Origin: Hephaestia sp. MAHUQ-44
GTDB taxonomy: Bacteria; Pseudomonadota; Alphaproteobacteria; Sphingomonadales; Sphingomonadaceae
Direction of reading: 5' to 3'
NCBI RefSeq assembly: GCF_023806085.1
Contig: NZ_JAMSLX010000002.1
Coordinates: forward strand, 310,001-374,000
Length of the DNA stretch: 64,000 nt
Below the pieces are notes generated by a model. The model was not told the origin of the DNA. It did no database searches and worked only from the letters and a program-made list of their open reading frames with translations. This document shows, in pieces, positions 50,256 through 55,284 of the stretch; positions within the stretch are counted from its first letter, which is position 1, and every line of letters starts with the position of its first letter. The translations under genes and the position numbers were made by a program.

Positions 50256-50572
50256 AAGCCGGCGTTCGATCGGACTGGCAGGGCGCGATCCTCGTCTGCC
50301 GCAAATGCTCGAAGAAACTCGACGGCGGCTTCGGCCGCAAGGGCAAGCAATCGCTCGCCAAAGGATTGCGCAAGCGGCTCGGCCTCAAAAAGGGGCGCAA
50401 GGCCGCGATTGGAATCGTCGAGGTCGGCTGTCTCGATGTCTGCCCCGATGGCGCGGTGACGGTGGTGGATACGCGTGATCCCGGCCGCTGGCGGATCGTG
50501 CCCGCTGGCAGCAACCTGGATGACGTGGCGGCCGAGTTGGGCCTGGCCGCCGGCGCGGTTCAGCCCGCGTAG
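50240..50572 (+). CDS. (2Fe-2S) thioredoxin-like ferredoxin protein
   Basis: A 110-residue protein. Four Cys fit a thioredoxin-like 2Fe-2S site: LVCRKCSKKLDGG and VEVGCLDVCPDGAVTV. A lysine-rich helix lies between (GRKGKQSLAKGLRKRLGLKK). ATG 50240 overlaps the DnaJ-domain gene by 16 bp. Family members are often found with cobalt or metal metabolism genes; the role here is unknown. The 3' end overlaps the convergent sufE by 13 bp. Confidence 0.8.
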   Translation: MASGLKAGVRSDWQGAILVCRKCSKKLDGGFGRKGKQSLAKGLRKRLGLKKGRKAAIGIVEVGCLDVCPDGAVTVVDTRDPGRWRIVPAGSNLDDVAAELGLAAGAVQPA

Positions 50573-50967
50573 CGCCGCGCGGTCGCGCGGATCAGCGCGA
50601 TCATGTTGGGGATCCCTTGCGTCCGGTTCGAACTGAGTTGGTTCTTGAGATCGAACGGCGCCAGCGCGCCCTCGATATCGGCCGCGAGGATATCGGCGGG
50701 CGGCTGATCCTGCACCGTCAGCAGCACCAGCGCGATGATCCCCTTGGTGATCGCGGCATTGCTGTCGGCCATGAAATGCAGCGCCCCGTCGTCGCGGACG
50801 GTGGGATAGACCCATACCGAGGCCGAACAGCCCCGCACCAGGGTCGCGTCGGTCTTGAGCGGCTCGGGCATCGGCGCCAGCGTTCGGCCGAGGTCGATCA
50901 GCAGGCGATAGCGATCGTCGCCGTCGAGGAATTCATATTCGTCTTGCAGCGCGGTGAGATGACTCAT
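50560..50967 (-). CDS. sufE: SufE family sulfur acceptor
   Basis: A 135-residue protein. LDGDDRYRLLIDLGRTLAPM and VRGCSASVWVYP with the active Cys near residue 47 are the SufE hallmarks, along with ITKGIIALVL. It accepts persulfide from a SufS-type desulfurase and stimulates it. No suf operon is nearby; the two desulfurases at 31.6-33.8 kb are possible partners. Confidence 0.93.
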   Translation of the reverse strand: MSHLTALQDEYEFLDGDDRYRLLIDLGRTLAPMPEPLKTDATLVRGCSASVWVYPTVRDDGALHFMADSNAAITKGIIALVLLTVQDQPPADILAADIEGALAPFDLKNQLSSNRTQGIPNMIALIRATARRYAG

Positions 50968-51039: not shown

Positions 51040-51285
51040 TCAAAGGTCCACCCCGGCCGCGATCGCCTCCAGTTTGCGGATGCGTTCCTTGAGGTCGGCG
51101 ATCTCGATCCGCGCGCTCGCGTTGGGCAAGGCCCGGTCGCCGTCGGCCTCGTGCCGGACGGCCAGTTCCTCATGCTTGAGGTCGAGCCAGCCGCGCCAGC
51201 CGGTCAATCCGGCATAGGCCAGCATCGCGATTGCGGCGAGGCCGGCGCCGGCAAGGGTCATGTAAAGAATGCTGTCAGTCATCAT
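51040..51285 (-). CDS. Psp-array small membrane/coiled-coil protein 5 (shortened)
   Basis: An 81-residue protein with one membrane helix near the N-terminus (LYMTLAGAGLAAIAMLAYAGL) and a charged helix ending LKERIRKLEAIAAG. This retains part of the signature repeated in the four genes before it, but the trailing EIxxLR is lost. ATG 51285 has AAGGA upstream and overlaps the preceding gene by 11 bp. It is the last gene of the psp cluster. Confidence 0.75.
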   Translation of the reverse strand: MMTDSILYMTLAGAGLAAIAMLAYAGLTGWRGWLDLKHEELAVRHEADGDRALPNASARIEIADLKERIRKLEAIAAGVDL

Positions 51286-51541
51286 GACGCGTCCTTTCGC
51301 TGGTGCGGTCGCGCAGCGCCTCGATCTCGCGGTCGAGGCGTGCGCTCGAATTGTCGTCGGTGGCGAGCCGCTCGAGCACCGCAAGGCGCTCCTTGAGCAT
51401 GCGGACTTCATCGCGGAGCTGGCGTGCTTCCTGGCTGTCGTCGTTGCCGCGCGGGGCCCCGCCGGCTGCGAAACGCGCCTGCAAGATCTTCCCGATGGTC
51501 ACCACGATGATGATGCCGAGGACCATTTCAAAGGGGTTCAT
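51275..51541 (-). CDS. Psp-array small membrane/coiled-coil protein 4
   Basis: An 88-residue protein: one membrane helix (MVLGIIIVVTIGKILQ) and a cytoplasmic coiled coil ending LKERLAVLERLATD then LDREIEALRD. The same C-terminal signature occurs in its neighbours and in PspB. It starts 30 bp after the preceding gene. Function inferred only from context: a psp-regulated membrane partner. Confidence 0.8.
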   Translation of the reverse strand: MNPFEMVLGIIIVVTIGKILQARFAAGGAPRGNDDSQEARQLRDEVRMLKERLAVLERLATDDNSSARLDREIEALRDRTSERTRHDD

Positions 51542-51571
51542 GTCAGGTCTCCCTGCGGTTCTTGTTATGCG

Positions 51572-51853
51572 TCAGTTCAAGGGATCGACCGGGCGATCGT
51601 CGCGCAGCCGATCGATCTCGTCGGCAAGGGCGATACCGCGATCGGTGATGATCCGTTCGAGCACGCGCACGCGTTGTTCGAGCCGCTCGGTATGCGCGGC
51701 ATATTGCGCGGCCTTTTCGGCGGTCTGCACCCCCTGGATGTCCATCTGACGTTCCTTGAGCTTCAACCAGCGCTTGAACATGTCGCTGCCGATGCCCAGC
51801 ACCACGGGAAGGCCGACGACGATCACAAAGAAGGCGATCATATTGCTGTCCAT
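51572..51853 (-). CDS. Psp-array small membrane/coiled-coil protein 3
   Basis: A 93-residue protein. The N-terminal helix is IAFFVIVVGLPVVLGIG, followed by a basic KRWLKLKERQMD and a coiled coil with LEQRVRVLERIITD and EIDRLRDD. The architecture is that of PspB, and the signature is shared across the array. Confidence 0.8.
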   Translation of the reverse strand: MDSNMIAFFVIVVGLPVVLGIGSDMFKRWLKLKERQMDIQGVQTAEKAAQYAAHTERLEQRVRVLERIITDRGIALADEIDRLRDDRPVDPLN

Positions 51854-51865
51854 CGGGCCTTCTCC

Positions 51866-52186
51866 TCAGTTCGCGGGGCCGCGCAGCCGCTCGATCTCCT
51901 GATCGAGCAGATGGCCGCTATCGGTAACGATGCGTTCGACGGTCGCCAGCCGATCCTTGACCGAGGCGAGTTCGGCGCGAAGCTGCGCATTCTCCTGCCC
52001 GATCAGCTTGACGCGCTCGGTCGTCTCGTTGGTGGTCTTGGGATAGACCGCCTGTCCCCAGGCGCCATCGAGCGGGTAACCGTTCTTGATCCGCATCCAG
52101 GTGTTGAGCACCAGCCCGGCCACCCCGACGATCACCACGGTGACGATGAGCGGCGCGATGCGCATGATGATGTCGGCGATATCCAT
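51866..52186 (-). CDS. Psp-array small membrane/coiled-coil protein 2
   Basis: A 106-residue protein: a membrane helix (APLIVTVVIVGVAGLVLNTW), a short IKNGYPLDG element that recurs as AKHGYPLED in the preceding gene, then a coiled coil with VKDRLATVERIVTD and QEIERLRG. The shared GYPL element supports duplication of these two genes from a common ancestor. Confidence 0.82.
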   Translation of the reverse strand: MDIADIIMRIAPLIVTVVIVGVAGLVLNTWMRIKNGYPLDGAWGQAVYPKTTNETTERVKLIGQENAQLRAELASVKDRLATVERIVTDSGHLLDQEIERLRGPAN

Positions 52187-52199
52187 GTCGGCGATTCCT

Positions 52200-52505
52200 T
52201 CAGCTCGCGTCGCGCAGCGAATCGATCTCGCGCGCGGTGCGTTCGGCCGGGTCGGTGGCGATCCGCTCGAGCACCCGCAGCCGCTCCTCGAGCCGGCCGA
52301 TCTGCCCGGTCAGGCGTTCGTTCTCGGTCGACAGCAGTTCGATCTTGCGTTCGGCGTCGGGGCTTTCGCCGCGATACGACCGGCCACGCTTGCGGTTTTC
52401 GTCCTCGAGCGGGTAGCCGTGCTTGGCGCGAACCCAGGTGCGAAAGGCGTGCGAGGCGCTGATTGCGGCCACGATCCCCACCGGCACCATCCAACCCATA
52501 TCCAT
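52200..52505 (-). CDS. Psp-array small membrane/coiled-coil protein 1
   Basis: A 101-residue protein starting at ATG 52505, 24 bp after pspC. One hydrophobic helix (MVPVGIVAAISASHAF), then the AKHGYPLED element, a charged region, and the coiled coil LEERLRVLERIATD with EIDSLRD. It is closest to the next gene. Confidence 0.82.
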   Translation of the reverse strand: MDMGWMVPVGIVAAISASHAFRTWVRAKHGYPLEDENRKRGRSYRGESPDAERKIELLSTENERLTGQIGRLEERLRVLERIATDPAERTAREIDSLRDAS

Positions 52506-52529
52506 TGTAATCCTCCCTTGGCCCGTCGG

Positions 52530-52907
52530 TCAGCGCAGTTGCTCGATCTCGTCGGCAAGGCGCGTGTTGCGGCTGGTGTACATCAGCTCGATGTCGGCGA
52601 GCCGGCGGTCGATGTCGCGGAATTTGGAGCGCACTTCGGCGGTCGAACGGCGCGGATTGGTCCGCACGCCCTGCCAGAATTTGGTATCCTCGGGCGACGT
52701 GTAATGCTCGATCGGCTTCTTGGGCGCGAACCAGGCGGCGGCGATATAACCAAGGAAGGCCCAGCCGCTTGTCGCGAGCGTCAGCAGCACCATGCCGACC
52801 CGCACCAGCGTCACGTCGAGCCCGGTATAATCCGCGATCCCCGCGCACACGCCCAGCCATTTGCCGTTATGCTTGTCGAGATAGAATTGGGTGCGGCGGT
52901 CTGACAT
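52530..52907 (-). CDS. pspC: Phage shock protein C
   Basis: A 125-residue protein. The PspC domain reads NGKWLGVCAGIADYTGLDVT then LVRVGMVLLTLATSGWAFLG with the membrane helix, and YIAAAWFAPKKP. The C-terminal tail ends RLADIELMYTSRNTRLADEI and EQLR, the same kind of ending as the small proteins downstream. PspC and PspB sense envelope stress and bind PspA. It starts 2 bp after pspB stops. Confidence 0.94.
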   Translation of the reverse strand: MSDRRTQFYLDKHNGKWLGVCAGIADYTGLDVTLVRVGMVLLTLATSGWAFLGYIAAAWFAPKKPIEHYTSPEDTKFWQGVRTNPRRSTAEVRSKFRDIDRRLADIELMYTSRNTRLADEIEQLR

Positions 52908-52908
52908 C

Positions 52909-53184
52909 TCAGTTCCTCCTCATCAGGTCGTAATCCTCGAGCCGGCGTTCCTGCGCGGGCGGATCGAGCGGTTTCCAGTCGGGATGGTCGGCGGCGATGA
53001 TCCGTTCGATCGTCGCGAGCCGGTCCTCGAGCCGGCGGGCGGTGTAGTGCAGGTCGTCGAGCAGCTTCTCGTCCTCACCGGTCAGCGTCGGCGCCTGCTT
53101 CCACTTGGTGATATAGTGGAGGAGGAGCCAGGGCAGACCCACGACGATGCCGAGGATGCCCATCCACATCAGAAGATCGTCCAT
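52909..53184 (-). CDS. pspB: Phage shock protein B
   Basis: A 91-residue protein: membrane helix MWMGILGIVVGLPWLLLHYI, then a charged helix with GEDEKLLDDLHYTARRLEDR and LATIERIIAADHPDW, the conserved end of PspB. It starts 4 bp after pspA. Partner of PspC in the membrane. Confidence 0.93.
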   Translation of the reverse strand: MDDLLMWMGILGIVVGLPWLLLHYITKWKQAPTLTGEDEKLLDDLHYTARRLEDRLATIERIIAADHPDWKPLDPPAQERRLEDYDLMRRN

Positions 53185-53188
53185 CGGC

Positions 53189-53857
53189 TCAATCCTCCTT
53201 GTTCAGGCGCGCCTTGAGCGCGGCGAGATCGGCTTCGACCTTTTCGTTCGTGCGCAGTTCGGCGATCTCTTCGTCGAGCGTTTTCTGCGGACCGCCCAGC
53301 GACAAGGCATCGGCGCGGCCTTCCGCCATGTCGACGCGGCGTTCGAGCACGTCGAAGCGCGAAAAGGCGTCCTGCGCCTTGGGCCCGGCATAGACCTCGC
53401 GCATCCGCACGCGGTTGGTGGCGCTCTCCAGCCGGGTCAGGATCGAATTCTGCCGGTTGCGCGCCTCGCGCAGCTTGGTCTGGAGCTTGGCGATATCCTC
53501 TTCCGACCCGCGCAGCGCATCGTCGAGCACCTTGATCTCGTCCTGAAGCTGTTCGGCCATGTCGCCGGCCTTCTGGCGTTCGATCAGCGCGGCCTTGGCG
53601 AGATCCTCGCGATCCTTGGACAGCGCCAACTCGGCTTTTTCGGTCCAGTTTTCCTGGAGCTTGTCGAGCTTGGCGATATGCCGGCGCATCTCCTTCTGGT
53701 CGGCGATGGTGCGCGCGGCCGACGCGCGAACCTCGACCAGCGTTTCCTCCATCTCGAGGATGATCATGCGGATCATCTTGGCCGGGTCTTCGGCCTTGTC
53801 GAGCAGGTCGGTGAAGTTGGCGGCAATGATGTCTCGGGTCCGTGAGAAGATACCCAT
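53189..53857 (-). CDS. pspA: Phage shock protein A
   Basis: A 222-residue coiled-coil protein starting at ATG 53857 (MGIFSRTRDIIAANFTDLLD), which is the canonical PspA/IM30 N-terminus. It then has EDPAKMIRMIILEMEETLVE and a long coiled coil to about 200. AAGGAG lies nine bases upstream. PspA restrains PspF and, on stress, forms scaffolds that support the inner membrane. The longer frame to 53911 is rejected. Confidence 0.96.
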   Translation of the reverse strand: MGIFSRTRDIIAANFTDLLDKAEDPAKMIRMIILEMEETLVEVRASAARTIADQKEMRRHIAKLDKLQENWTEKAELALSKDREDLAKAALIERQKAGDMAEQLQDEIKVLDDALRGSEEDIAKLQTKLREARNRQNSILTRLESATNRVRMREVYAGPKAQDAFSRFDVLERRVDMAEGRADALSLGGPQKTLDEEIAELRTNEKVEADLAALKARLNKED

Positions 53858-53925
53858 GTGGTAATGCTCCTTGGTCAATGGGCTGCCGGGGCGGGGCAGG
53901 GGGCGTCCCACCCCGGCGCGTCGGG

Positions 53926-54075
53926 TCAGGCGAGGGGGCCGACGGCGACGCTATCGGATGACGGGGCGGCCGTCACGTGGGCGGGGGCGACCGCGCCCAG
54001 CACGCAGGCGGCGCTGAAGACGAGGGTGCACGCGATCGTGGCGGTAGTGCGGGCGATGGTCTCGAACTTGAACAT
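53926..54075 (-). CDS. Small secreted or membrane peptide, first gene of the psp operon
   Basis: A 49-residue frame from ATG 54075 (AGGA eight bases upstream): a basic/polar start, the helix ATIACTLVFSAACVLGAVAP, and a short Ala/Ser-rich tail ending in SSDSVAVGPLA. It looks like a signal-peptide-like secreted peptide. It lies between the sigma-54 promoter and pspA. No family is recognised. Confidence 0.55.
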   Translation of the reverse strand: MFKFETIARTTATIACTLVFSAACVLGAVAPAHVTAAPSSDSVAVGPLA

Positions 54076-54132
54076 GGCGAATTCCTGATCTTGAGGTCGG
54101 GTCCGTCGCTTGGGCGGAGATGTCGGGTGCTC

Positions 54133-54148
54133 TGCATGCGGCGTGCCA
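54133..54148 (-). promoter_or_regulatory. Sigma-54 promoter of the psp operon
   Basis: On the minus strand the sequence reads TGGCACG-CCGC-ATGCA, against the consensus TGGCACG-N4-TTGCW; the only mismatch is A for the first T of TTGC. The -24 GG and -12 GC are exactly spaced. It points into the small peptide gene and pspABC. PspF, encoded divergently, is the expected activator. An inverted repeat TGCCA-N6-TGGCA (54144-54159) overlaps the -24 element. Confidence 0.85.
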
Positions 54149-54249: not shown

Positions 54250-55284
54250 ATGGAGCGAACCACCCAGGTCATCGGCCAGTCAGGGGCCTTTCTCGACGCG
54301 CTCGAACGCGCCAGCCGTGCCGCCGCACTCGATCGGCCGGTGCTCGTGATCGGCGAGCGCGGCACCGGCAAGGAGCTTGTCGCCGAGCGTCTCCATCGCC
54401 TGTCGCCGCGCTGGGATCAGCCGCTCGTCATCATGAATTGCGCCGCGCTCCCCGAAACGCTGATCGAGGCCGAATTGTTCGGGCATGAGGCGGGCGCCTT
54501 CACCGGCGCCACCAAGGCGCGCGTCGGGCGGTTCGAGGAGGCGCACGGCGGCACGCTGTTCCTCGACGAACTCGGCACGCTGTCGATGGCGGCGCAGGAT
54601 CGGCTGCTGCGCGCGGTCGAATATGGAGAGATCACCCGGATCGGCTCGTCGCGCCCGATCCGGGTCGACGTGCGGATCGTCGCCGCGACCAACGAACATT
54701 TGCCTGCCAAGGTCGCGGCGAATGCGTTTCGCGCCGATCTGCTCGATCGGCTGTCGTTCGAGGTCGTGACATTGCCGCCGCTGCGCGCGCGCAAGAGCGA
54801 CGTGATGGTGCTCGCCGAATATTTCGGGCGCCGCATGGCCTCTGAAATCGGCTGGGCGGACTGGCCCGGATTCGGCGCCGAAGCGACCGACGCGCTGATC
54901 GAATATGGCTGGCCCGGCAATGTCCGCGAACTGCGCAACGTCATCGAACGCGCGGTCTATCGCTGGGAACGCGAAGGCCCGATCGAGGCGATCGAATTCG
55001 ATCCGTTCGTGTCGCCCTATCGCCCGGCCGCGCCCGCTGGGGATCGCGCCGCGCCGCCTGCTGCCGAGCCGGCCGCGACGGAGGACGAAGACCCCGTCAC
55101 CGCATGCGAGGAAGGCCCGTCGGACTTCAAATCGCGCGTGTCGCGCTTCGAACATCAGTTGCTCAGGCGCGCGCTTGCGGACAACCGCTTCAACCAGCGC
55201 GCGACTGCCGAAGCATTGGGACTGACCTACGATCAGCTCCGCCACGCGCTGCGTCGCCATGATCTGCTCGGCGGGGCAAGCTGA
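54250..55284 (+). CDS. pspF: PspF, sigma-54 activator of the psp operon
   Basis: A 344-residue AAA+ activator with no receiver domain, as in PspF. Walker A is VLVIGERGTGKELVAER, the sigma-54 contact loop is GAFTGA (ELFGHEAGAFTGATKA), Walker B FLDELG, and the arginine-finger region follows (RLSFEVVTLPPLRAR). The C-terminal Fis-type HTH is FNQRATAEALGLTYDQLRHA. ATG 54250 is chosen; the frame to 54193 adds a doubtful peptide. It is divergent from pspA. Confidence 0.94.
   Translation: MERTTQVIGQSGAFLDALERASRAAALDRPVLVIGERGTGKELVAERLHRLSPRWDQPLVIMNCAALPETLIEAELFGHEAGAFTGATKARVGRFEEAHGGTLFLDELGTLSMAAQDRLLRAVEYGEITRIGSSRPIRVDVRIVAATNEHLPAKVAANAFRADLLDRLSFEVVTLPPLRARKSDVMVLAEYFGRRMASEIGWADWPGFGAEATDALIEYGWPGNVRELRNVIERAVYRWEREGPIEAIEFDPFVSPYRPAAPAGDRAAPPAAEPAATEDEDPVTACEEGPSDFKSRVSRFEHQLLRRALADNRFNQRATAEALGLTYDQLRHALRRHDLLGGAS

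Follow-up and report, generated by a model that had tools for sequence, protein, structure and literature searches.

Behind pspA, pspB and pspC in the phage shock protein (Psp) operon of Hephaestia sp. MAHUQ-44 lie five further small genes, o1-o5, which I describe here from a window of 64,000 nucleotides (the whole stretch of DNA analysed, from contig NZ_JAMSLX010000002.1). I favour, at a probability of roughly 0.55, the reading that o1-o4 are free-standing versions of the membrane-anchored tail with which PspC docks PspA, encoded in one operon with PspA and adding docking sites for it. The evidence is a tail in o1-o4 that aligns without gaps with that of PspC, the presence of relatives in all 64 genomes of a first draw from the family (Sphingomonadaceae), their absence from two genomes that lack PspA and their persistence in two genomes without a detectable PspB. 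The fifth gene, o5, reads as a weak relative with half of the tail.

Results

I use "extras" for the small open reading frames (ORFs) behind pspC; genes were called with my own script. All five in the window lie on the minus strand. Following pspC they are o1 (52200..52505; 101 residues), with a transmembrane (TM) helix, a GYPLED juxtamembrane element and the tail LEERLRVLERIATD...EIDSLR; o2 (51866..52186; 106 residues), with a TM helix, an NGYPLDGxWGQ element and the tail VKDRLATVERIVTD...EIERLR; o3 (51572..51853; 93 residues), with a TM helix, an AEKAAQYA stretch and the tail LEQRVRVLERIITD...EIDRLR; o4 (51275..51541; 88 residues), with an MNPFEMV TM helix and the tail LKERLAVLERLATD...EIEALR; and o5 (51040..51282), with a TM helix, a GWRGWL element and the half tail RIEIADLKERIRKLEAIAAGVDL. 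o5 (LKERIRKLEAIAAGVDL) has no EIxxLR half, ends in GVDL, and measures 80 residues from the start picked by the gene finder and slightly more from ATGs upstream of it. A sequence-only reading of this DNA had reported five small ORFs of 81-106 residues after pspABC, each with one N-terminal helix and a coiled coil, four of them ending in EIxxLR and two sharing GYPL. All of this is borne out, with o1-o4 as the four and o1 and o2 as the two; every motif that it quoted is present, the operon is of the PspF/sigma54 type, and the lengths agree apart from the start-dependent o5. A codon-usage gene finder calls all five, their spacing in the operon is tight (24, 13, 12, 30 and -8 nucleotides), and the ratio of nonsynonymous to synonymous substitution rates (dN/dS) is 0-0.55 in 24 of 26 comparisons over six genome pairs, the remaining two giving no ratio. 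Together with the family-wide orthologous groups described below, this establishes o1-o5 as genes rather than chance ORFs.

The tail of o1-o4 corresponds to that of PspC. When 243 tails of extras (pooled consensus LxERLxxLERIxTD...LxxEIxxLR) were compared with 77 PspC tails from the family, from outside it and from E. coli, 37 columns aligned without a gap (95.4%, E 1.9e-8), and 0 of 150 heptad-block shuffles aligned as well. The alignment spans the V105 site of E. coli PspC, which lies within RLREMERYVTSDTFTLRSRFRQL; the corresponding stretch of o3 in the window is RVRVLERIITDRGIALADEIDRLR, with identical spacing, and at the V105-equivalent position 291 of 303 extras have A, V or I (297 fit the pattern). 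Both a V105-type site and an LxxE(I/F/L)xxL end, which together mark a PspC tail, are found in o1-o4, and o5 ends after the first half. The EIxxLR half has no counterpart in PspB. Conversely, the xPx(W/F) end of PspB is missing from the extras, with EIxxLR in its place in o1-o4.

Another candidate, the extras as mimics of the C-terminal helices of PspA (LxxEIAxL, by eye), was rejected, as 5 of 150 shuffles were as good, which is within the null. Between the PspC tail and the PspA C-terminus the match is thin, at 11% and a score of 20.2 where the null reached 19.2 at most, and the I/F pattern seen over the loci does not decide the matter.

None of the window's extras passes any Pfam or NCBIfam family cut-off, those of PspC included. 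For PspB, o1-o5 reach at most 13.4 bits with PF06667 (cut-off 25.6) and 16.3 bits with TIGR02976 (cut-off 51.7), and the Pfam scan finds no match to the PspC domain PF04024 in any of the five. Below the cut-offs, o2 matches TIGR02978 (PspC; model positions 57-121, E 0.003), o3 matches both TIGR02978 (75-121, E 0.0057) and TIGR02976 (E 0.047), and o4 matches TIGR02976 (E 0.0089); unrelated coiled-coil models score about as high in these scans. A sequence search of solved structures for relatives of PspB and PspC returned one match each (E 0.73 and 0.5), unrelated by name.

Profile comparisons with hhalign gave 98-100% among o1-o4. Against PspB from outside the family, o1 reached 93-94, o2 50-51, o3 97 and o4 93%, and o5 only 1-13%; against PspB of the family o1-o4 reached 84-91, 77-84, 81-84 and 28-74%, and against PspC tails of the family 93, 96, 85-92 and 83-90%, respectively. 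PspB against the PspC tail gave 0-36%. Models of PspB and of the PspC tail, built in one pass from out-of-family sequences and E. coli only, found 48 and 20 of the 303 extras, respectively, at E<=1e-3, and found each other in 0 of 61 cases each way. Since the extras score with both models, which miss each other, o1-o4 stand between PspB and the PspC tail. o5 links to o4 (90-92%) and o3 (79-87%) and to nothing else, with 0-13% for PspB or PspC, and therefore its kinship to PspB is not shown. The repeated duplication of PspB into five PspB-like paralogues, as the sequence-only reading proposed, thus survives in part: o1-o4 are paralogues of one another and distant relatives of PspB, but o5 drops out and plain duplication fits poorly, with no extra over a PspB cut-off, none with the PspB end, and a full tail that is that of PspC.

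The build of the extras is uniform. The charge behind the TM helix is more positive than that before it in 301 of 303 extras, with two ties, and none of the 303 has a second hydrophobic segment beyond residue 45; because of this bias and the single hydrophobic segment, the tail is expected on the cytoplasmic side of the membrane, the side of PspA, and the extras should be proteins of one TM helix in N-out/C-in orientation. An AlphaFold2 model of o2 has helices at 3-35 (the TM helix) and 53-101, with a mean predicted local distance difference test (pLDDT) of 80.6 and a predicted template modelling score (pTM) of 0.35. Between groups of one locus (358 pairs), identity is 44% over 19 residues of the tail and 26% over the first 40 residues, a comparison that favours the tail, as the tail stretch was anchored on the motif. 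In a FastTree tree of o1-o4 and two unassigned extras, o5 left out, o2 (54/54) and o3 (87/88) form pure or nearly pure clades and all 60 members of o4 fall in a clade of 61; o1 is not a clade (best 22/44). Thus o2-o4 are old paralogues, and o1 may be a grade. As o2-o4 are near-pure clades, most of the set is older than the radiation of the family, with local duplications later.

An array of this kind is normal for the family. TIGR02976 was searched in 147 genomes of the order and matched 135, among them 63 of the 64 family genomes. Sixty family loci and the window, 61 in all, were annotated in one set with 20 loci of the order's other families, the latter a sample of the 72 matching non-family genomes; two matched family genomes (G053 and G121) and the unmatched one (G146) were read apart. 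As the 61 loci were picked by a PspB match, the presence of PspB in them carries no meaning. They hold 324 small ORFs after pspC, of which 21 were dropped (shorter than 65 residues, or a second PspC) to leave the 303 extras. Relatives of the extras occur in 64 of 64 family genomes, with 2-7 per operon in the 61 loci and two, four and three in G053, G121 and G146. Iterative clustering seeded with the five genes of the window gave groups o1 (44 members in 42 of the 61 loci), o2 (54 in 54), o3 (88 in 58), o4 (60 in 58) and o5 (55 in 55), with two extras in no group. The layout of the window, o1 o2 o3 o4 o5, is the commonest (10 loci), and the range runs from two genes (o4 o5) to seven. The sequence-only reading called the arrangement non-standard; outside the family, 15 of the 20 loci have no small gene after pspC. 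Three others, all from one family, have a tail-less PspC-domain gene with an o4-like gene behind it, a further locus carries an additional PspB that has the PspB end, and the last has a 159-residue ORF.

A tail-protein model (A3), built from extras and two relatives from outside, with o5 not included, found matches in 57 of 59 genera in a second draw from the family. This draw has 13 of its 59 genomes in common with the first, and the PspC tail may itself account for an A3 match in it; five genera yielded only one match each, which for G777 is weak (4.7e-4). Every one of the five A3 matches in the window's own genome falls within the psp operon, and one of them is the PspC tail (362530-362661 of the contig, E 8.5e-4). 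Among 80 named loci, with Sphingomonas, Sphingobium, Rhizorhabdus, Sphingopyxis and Hephaestia among their titles, 78 have pspA and o5 in the stretch, and at least three extras are present in 73 of these; the loci were selected by o5, which makes its count there meaningless, and some of their genes were merged by the gene finder.

The few genomes that lack parts of the system are informative. PspC and A3 matches both occur in 57 of the 59 genera of the second draw, and the two without either are the same genomes, G752 and G769, in which there is no PspA match either. Conversely, G146 and G053 have PspA and extras and no PF06667 match; in G053, pspA is followed by an 88-residue PspC without a tail and then by two tail proteins. 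In these few genomes, then, the extras follow PspA and not PspB. In 62 of the 64 family genomes PspB still gives a strong match (best E 8.1e-18 or better), so the extras do not as a rule replace it.

As a separate matter, the best pspF match of G053 (L218) lies on a contig other than that of pspA and is not divergent from a psp operon. Short tail-less PspC-domain genes that adjoin a full PspC or a separate tail protein also occur at L086, L088, L089, L058, L220, L098 and L219, as if the two halves of PspC could be encoded separately.

Relatives also occur beyond the family. Searched across the whole class, A3 had matches in 11 of 289 genomes, of which four belong to this family; the matches elsewhere comprise one strong one (G327) and six weak ones, and the weak ones include L096 (a PspC), L099 (a PspB), L098 (the second PspB-like gene of a psp operon), L095 and L097. 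It is the o4 type that has relatives outside psp loci. Across the phylum, a model of this type had matches in 47 of 349 genomes, including 15 that belong to this family, with several of the weak matches lying in long unrelated frames or probably being PspB itself. Twenty o4-type regions were read: one is the G053 operon, one (L203) has no called small gene, and 18 (L191-L202, L204-L208 and L210), from other families and classes of the phylum, hold a small TM-plus-tail gene, and none of the neighbours that start within about 2 kb of it is a psp gene. L196 is a tandem pair, and the copies at L208 and L210 stand beside one type of neighbour, which I take to be dUTPase-like. Six of these free-standing relatives were scanned (two from the same order, one from another order of the class and three from elsewhere in the phylum); they match PspB and PspC models below cut-off and exceed no Pfam or NCBIfam cut-off, and one, from another class, aligns with positions 50-119 of the 119 in the PspC model (TM plus tail) at E 1.3e-4.

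In the rest of the locus, each of PspF, PspA, PspB and PspC passes its NCBIfam equivalog cut-off. On the minus strand pspA (53189..53857; TIGR02977 275.6 bits, over the cut-off) encodes the ESCRT-III-like effector and PspF inhibitor; it is followed by pspB (52909..53184; PF06667 82.3 bits and TIGR02976 76 bits, over both cut-offs) and pspC (52530..52907; PF04024 62.7 bits and TIGR02978 116.4 bits, over the cut-offs), whose C-terminal tail is SKFRDIDRRLADIELMYTSRNTRLADEIEQLR. Divergent from the operon is pspF (54250..55284, plus strand), a sigma54 enhancer-binding activator (TIGR02974 477.8 bits, cut-off 443.55). Between the two lies a sigma54-type -24/-12 element, TGGCACGCCGCATGCA (54133..54148, minus strand), found in a GG-N10-GC scan, and in 77 of 80 loci scanned the best site between pspF and pspA scores at least 9/12, in a scan run without a shuffle control and scored against the usual consensus letters.

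The first gene behind this element is a small hydrophobic ORF of 49 residues (53926..54075, minus strand; from the gene finder), lying between it and pspA. An ORF of 45-86 residues occupies this place in 47 of 61 family loci, with little sequence identity and a similar build, and the small forms scanned have no Pfam or NCBIfam match (the ORF of the window: up to E 1); at L010 and L014 a protein of 162-169 residues, TonB-C-like by eye, stands there instead. At the other end of the operon, a probable two-TM protein of 56-63 residues (AGIGLGSAIAVAISWS...GWFYVIYYAFTRPGG) follows o5 in 15 of 61 loci (L024, L027, L030, L033, L041, L043, L045, L051, L056, L059, L061, L062, L064, L068 and L069); the one copy scanned has no Pfam or NCBIfam match. 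The downstream neighbour in the window (50560..50967, minus strand), presumably SufE-like, has a homologue in the stretches of 71 of 81 loci, adjoining the small genes directly in most family loci.

Discussion

How might such proteins work? By prediction, each of o1-o4 spans the membrane once (N-out/C-in), continues in a juxtamembrane segment that varies between them and ends in a cytoplasmic helix bearing the PspC tail, without the N-terminal domain of PspC. Encoded in one sigma54/PspF-type operon, they would be induced together with PspA. Upon membrane damage they would offer PspA additional docking sites, each anchored in its own way, that keep it at the inner membrane, and alongside PspC they would pull it off PspF. 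The suggestion of the sequence-only reading that these proteins tune PspA recruitment is thus retained, in a sharper form. Their differing membrane segments could set where, or to what, each of them responds, with the common tail giving a common output, and o5 with its half tail might act within this assembly as a partner or a modulator. What is reported of the PspC tail is consistent with such a role. The leucine zipper of PspC is needed for its interaction with PspA (PMC3068692), the C-terminus is said to bring PspA to the membrane, a change at V125 of Yersinia PspC abolishes the PspC/PspA interaction, and the corresponding change in E. coli PspC, V105D, is said, from work in preparation, to abolish PspC-dependent signalling (all PMC6003685). 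Furthermore, psp is induced by PspC40-119 (TM plus tail) when this fragment is strongly overexpressed; the proton-motive force (pmf) does not fall, and co-expressed PspB is dispensable for the induction (PMC3068692).

Several observations weigh against this reading. In the same work, stress-dependent induction came from full-length PspC and not from fragments, PspC69-119 alone showed no two-hybrid interaction with PspA, PspC40-119 scored negative in some fusion orientations, and the topology of PspC is described as disputed (PMC3068692). Family scores of the single proteins are weak, with o1 and o5 matching neither PspB nor PspC models, and hhalign against out-of-family PspC tails depends on direction and gives low values for o3 and o4 (o1 54-84, o2 36-86, o3 7-70 and o4 4-21%). 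Coiled-coil composition inflates scores: two self-reversed hhalign comparisons reached 65 and 80%, and A3 has chance-like matches in unrelated coiled-coil proteins (L095, E 2.7e-6; L097, 1.4e-4). G053 has one TIGR02976 match below the cut-off (E 1.3e-4; place unlisted), which is probably an extra, and drift rather than specialisation may explain why the N-terminal segments are so little alike. Finally, o3 and o4 match PspB better than the PspC tail in the one-pass searches (best E 4.9e-8 and 2e-9 against PspB).

This last result also speaks for the strongest alternative, although I hold it to be unlikely: that the extras are PspB paralogues in function, which pair with PspC through the membrane helix, stabilise it, restrain its dissipation of the pmf and reach PspA only through PspC. 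The 93-97% of o1, o3 and o4 against out-of-family PspB fits it, as does the retention of extras in the two genomes without a PF06667 match, and a PspC1-68 fragment lowers the pmf without co-expressed PspB, with the PspB contact placed in the TM region of PspC (PMC3068692). Against it, the extras lack the end of PspB and possess the later half of the PspC tail, for which PspB has no equivalent, and PspB itself is strongly retained in nearly all the family genomes.

A more sceptical explanation, and a very improbable one in my view, is that the likeness goes no further than a generic amphipathic coiled coil following a TM helix, the extras being passengers of the operon unrelated to PspB or PspC. 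The generic coiled-coil families among the weak Pfam matches, the chance-like A3 matches and the lack of a detectable link from o5 to PspB or PspC all suit it, but the controls do not: at the E<=1e-3 that 48 and 20 extras passed, the one-pass models picked up none of the 303 reversed copies and none of the 606 other proteins encoded at the same loci. At E<=0.1 the PspC-tail model found 115 extras, 5 reversed copies and none of the others, column-reversed hhalign controls between different families reached at most 36%, no heptad-block shuffle equalled the tail alignment, and the extras are absent from the same two genera that have neither PspC nor PspA. A likeness confined to generic coiled coils, which the sequence-only reading had named as fatal to its duplication model, is therefore largely excluded for o1-o4, though not for the half-tailed o5. 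That the extras are decoys or buffers, whose membrane-held tails rival PspC in binding PspA and weaken or shut down the response after induction, would accord with a tail and an operon that are also those of PspC and with several genes per operon, as might suit a stoichiometric buffer, but the nearest analogue, PspC40-119, activates psp and shows no damping (PMC3068692), and I consider it very unlikely.

If o1-o4 are indeed free-standing docking tails, then the tail has been separated from PspC, multiplied on different membrane segments and kept family-wide, in two genomes without a detectable PspB. These arrays bear on how the Psp system senses stress and how PspA reaches the membrane: they offer a direct test of whether PspA recruitment takes no more than the tail, on a membrane anchor of any kind, and of whether the stress that is sensed depends on the membrane segment; they may show how one repair protein gets many docking sites. 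It is possible, if rather doubtful, that the docking tail of PspC is a module of its own, an unnamed family of tiny TM-plus-tail proteins across more than one class, which outside Sphingomonadaceae stands mostly away from psp genes in the sampled cases and within it forms a multi-channel panel, each member sensing a different membrane state and all reporting to PspA. In practical terms, the scanned extras fall below the PspB and PspC cut-offs, and a set of Psp partners therefore seems to escape the database models.

Comparison with known systems

In the collection of papers searched, none was found on PspB or phage shock in sphingomonads or Sphingomonas, and the passages on duplication in PMC9239133 name PspA and PspC, with no mention there of sphingomonads. 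The closest precedent is Ravi et al. (2024, PMC11237479), where one sentence, with AOL22920.1 as its example, notes "PspB duplicates" in psp operons, and where PspC fused to a divergent C-terminal PspB is also described. The likeness lies in the additional PspB genes in psp operons and in the tie between the PspC C-terminus and PspB, whereas arrays of 2-7 genes, a PspC-type tail, family-wide presence and free-standing copies do not feature in its account of these genes.

Compared with PspB, the extras are likewise short, with an N-terminal TM helix, a cytoplasmic helix with LExRLxxxERI and profile similarity (more in o1, o3 and o4 than in o2), but they stay below its cut-offs, have no xPx(W/F) end and add an EIxxLR end. 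Compared with PspC, o1-o4 share the operon and the ungapped 37 columns of tail, including the V105 equivalent and the LxxEIxxL end, but the extras have no PspC domain, have a single TM helix and fall below the PspC cut-offs. They are most like the E. coli PspC40-119 fragment (PMC3068692), a TM helix plus tail without the N-terminal domain, and although that fragment is an artificial truncation of PspC and not a separate gene, the extras look like its natural counterparts. What the present analysis adds to the literature is that the tail is that of PspC, that the arrays are family-wide, that the extras go with PspA, and that free-standing relatives exist outside psp loci.

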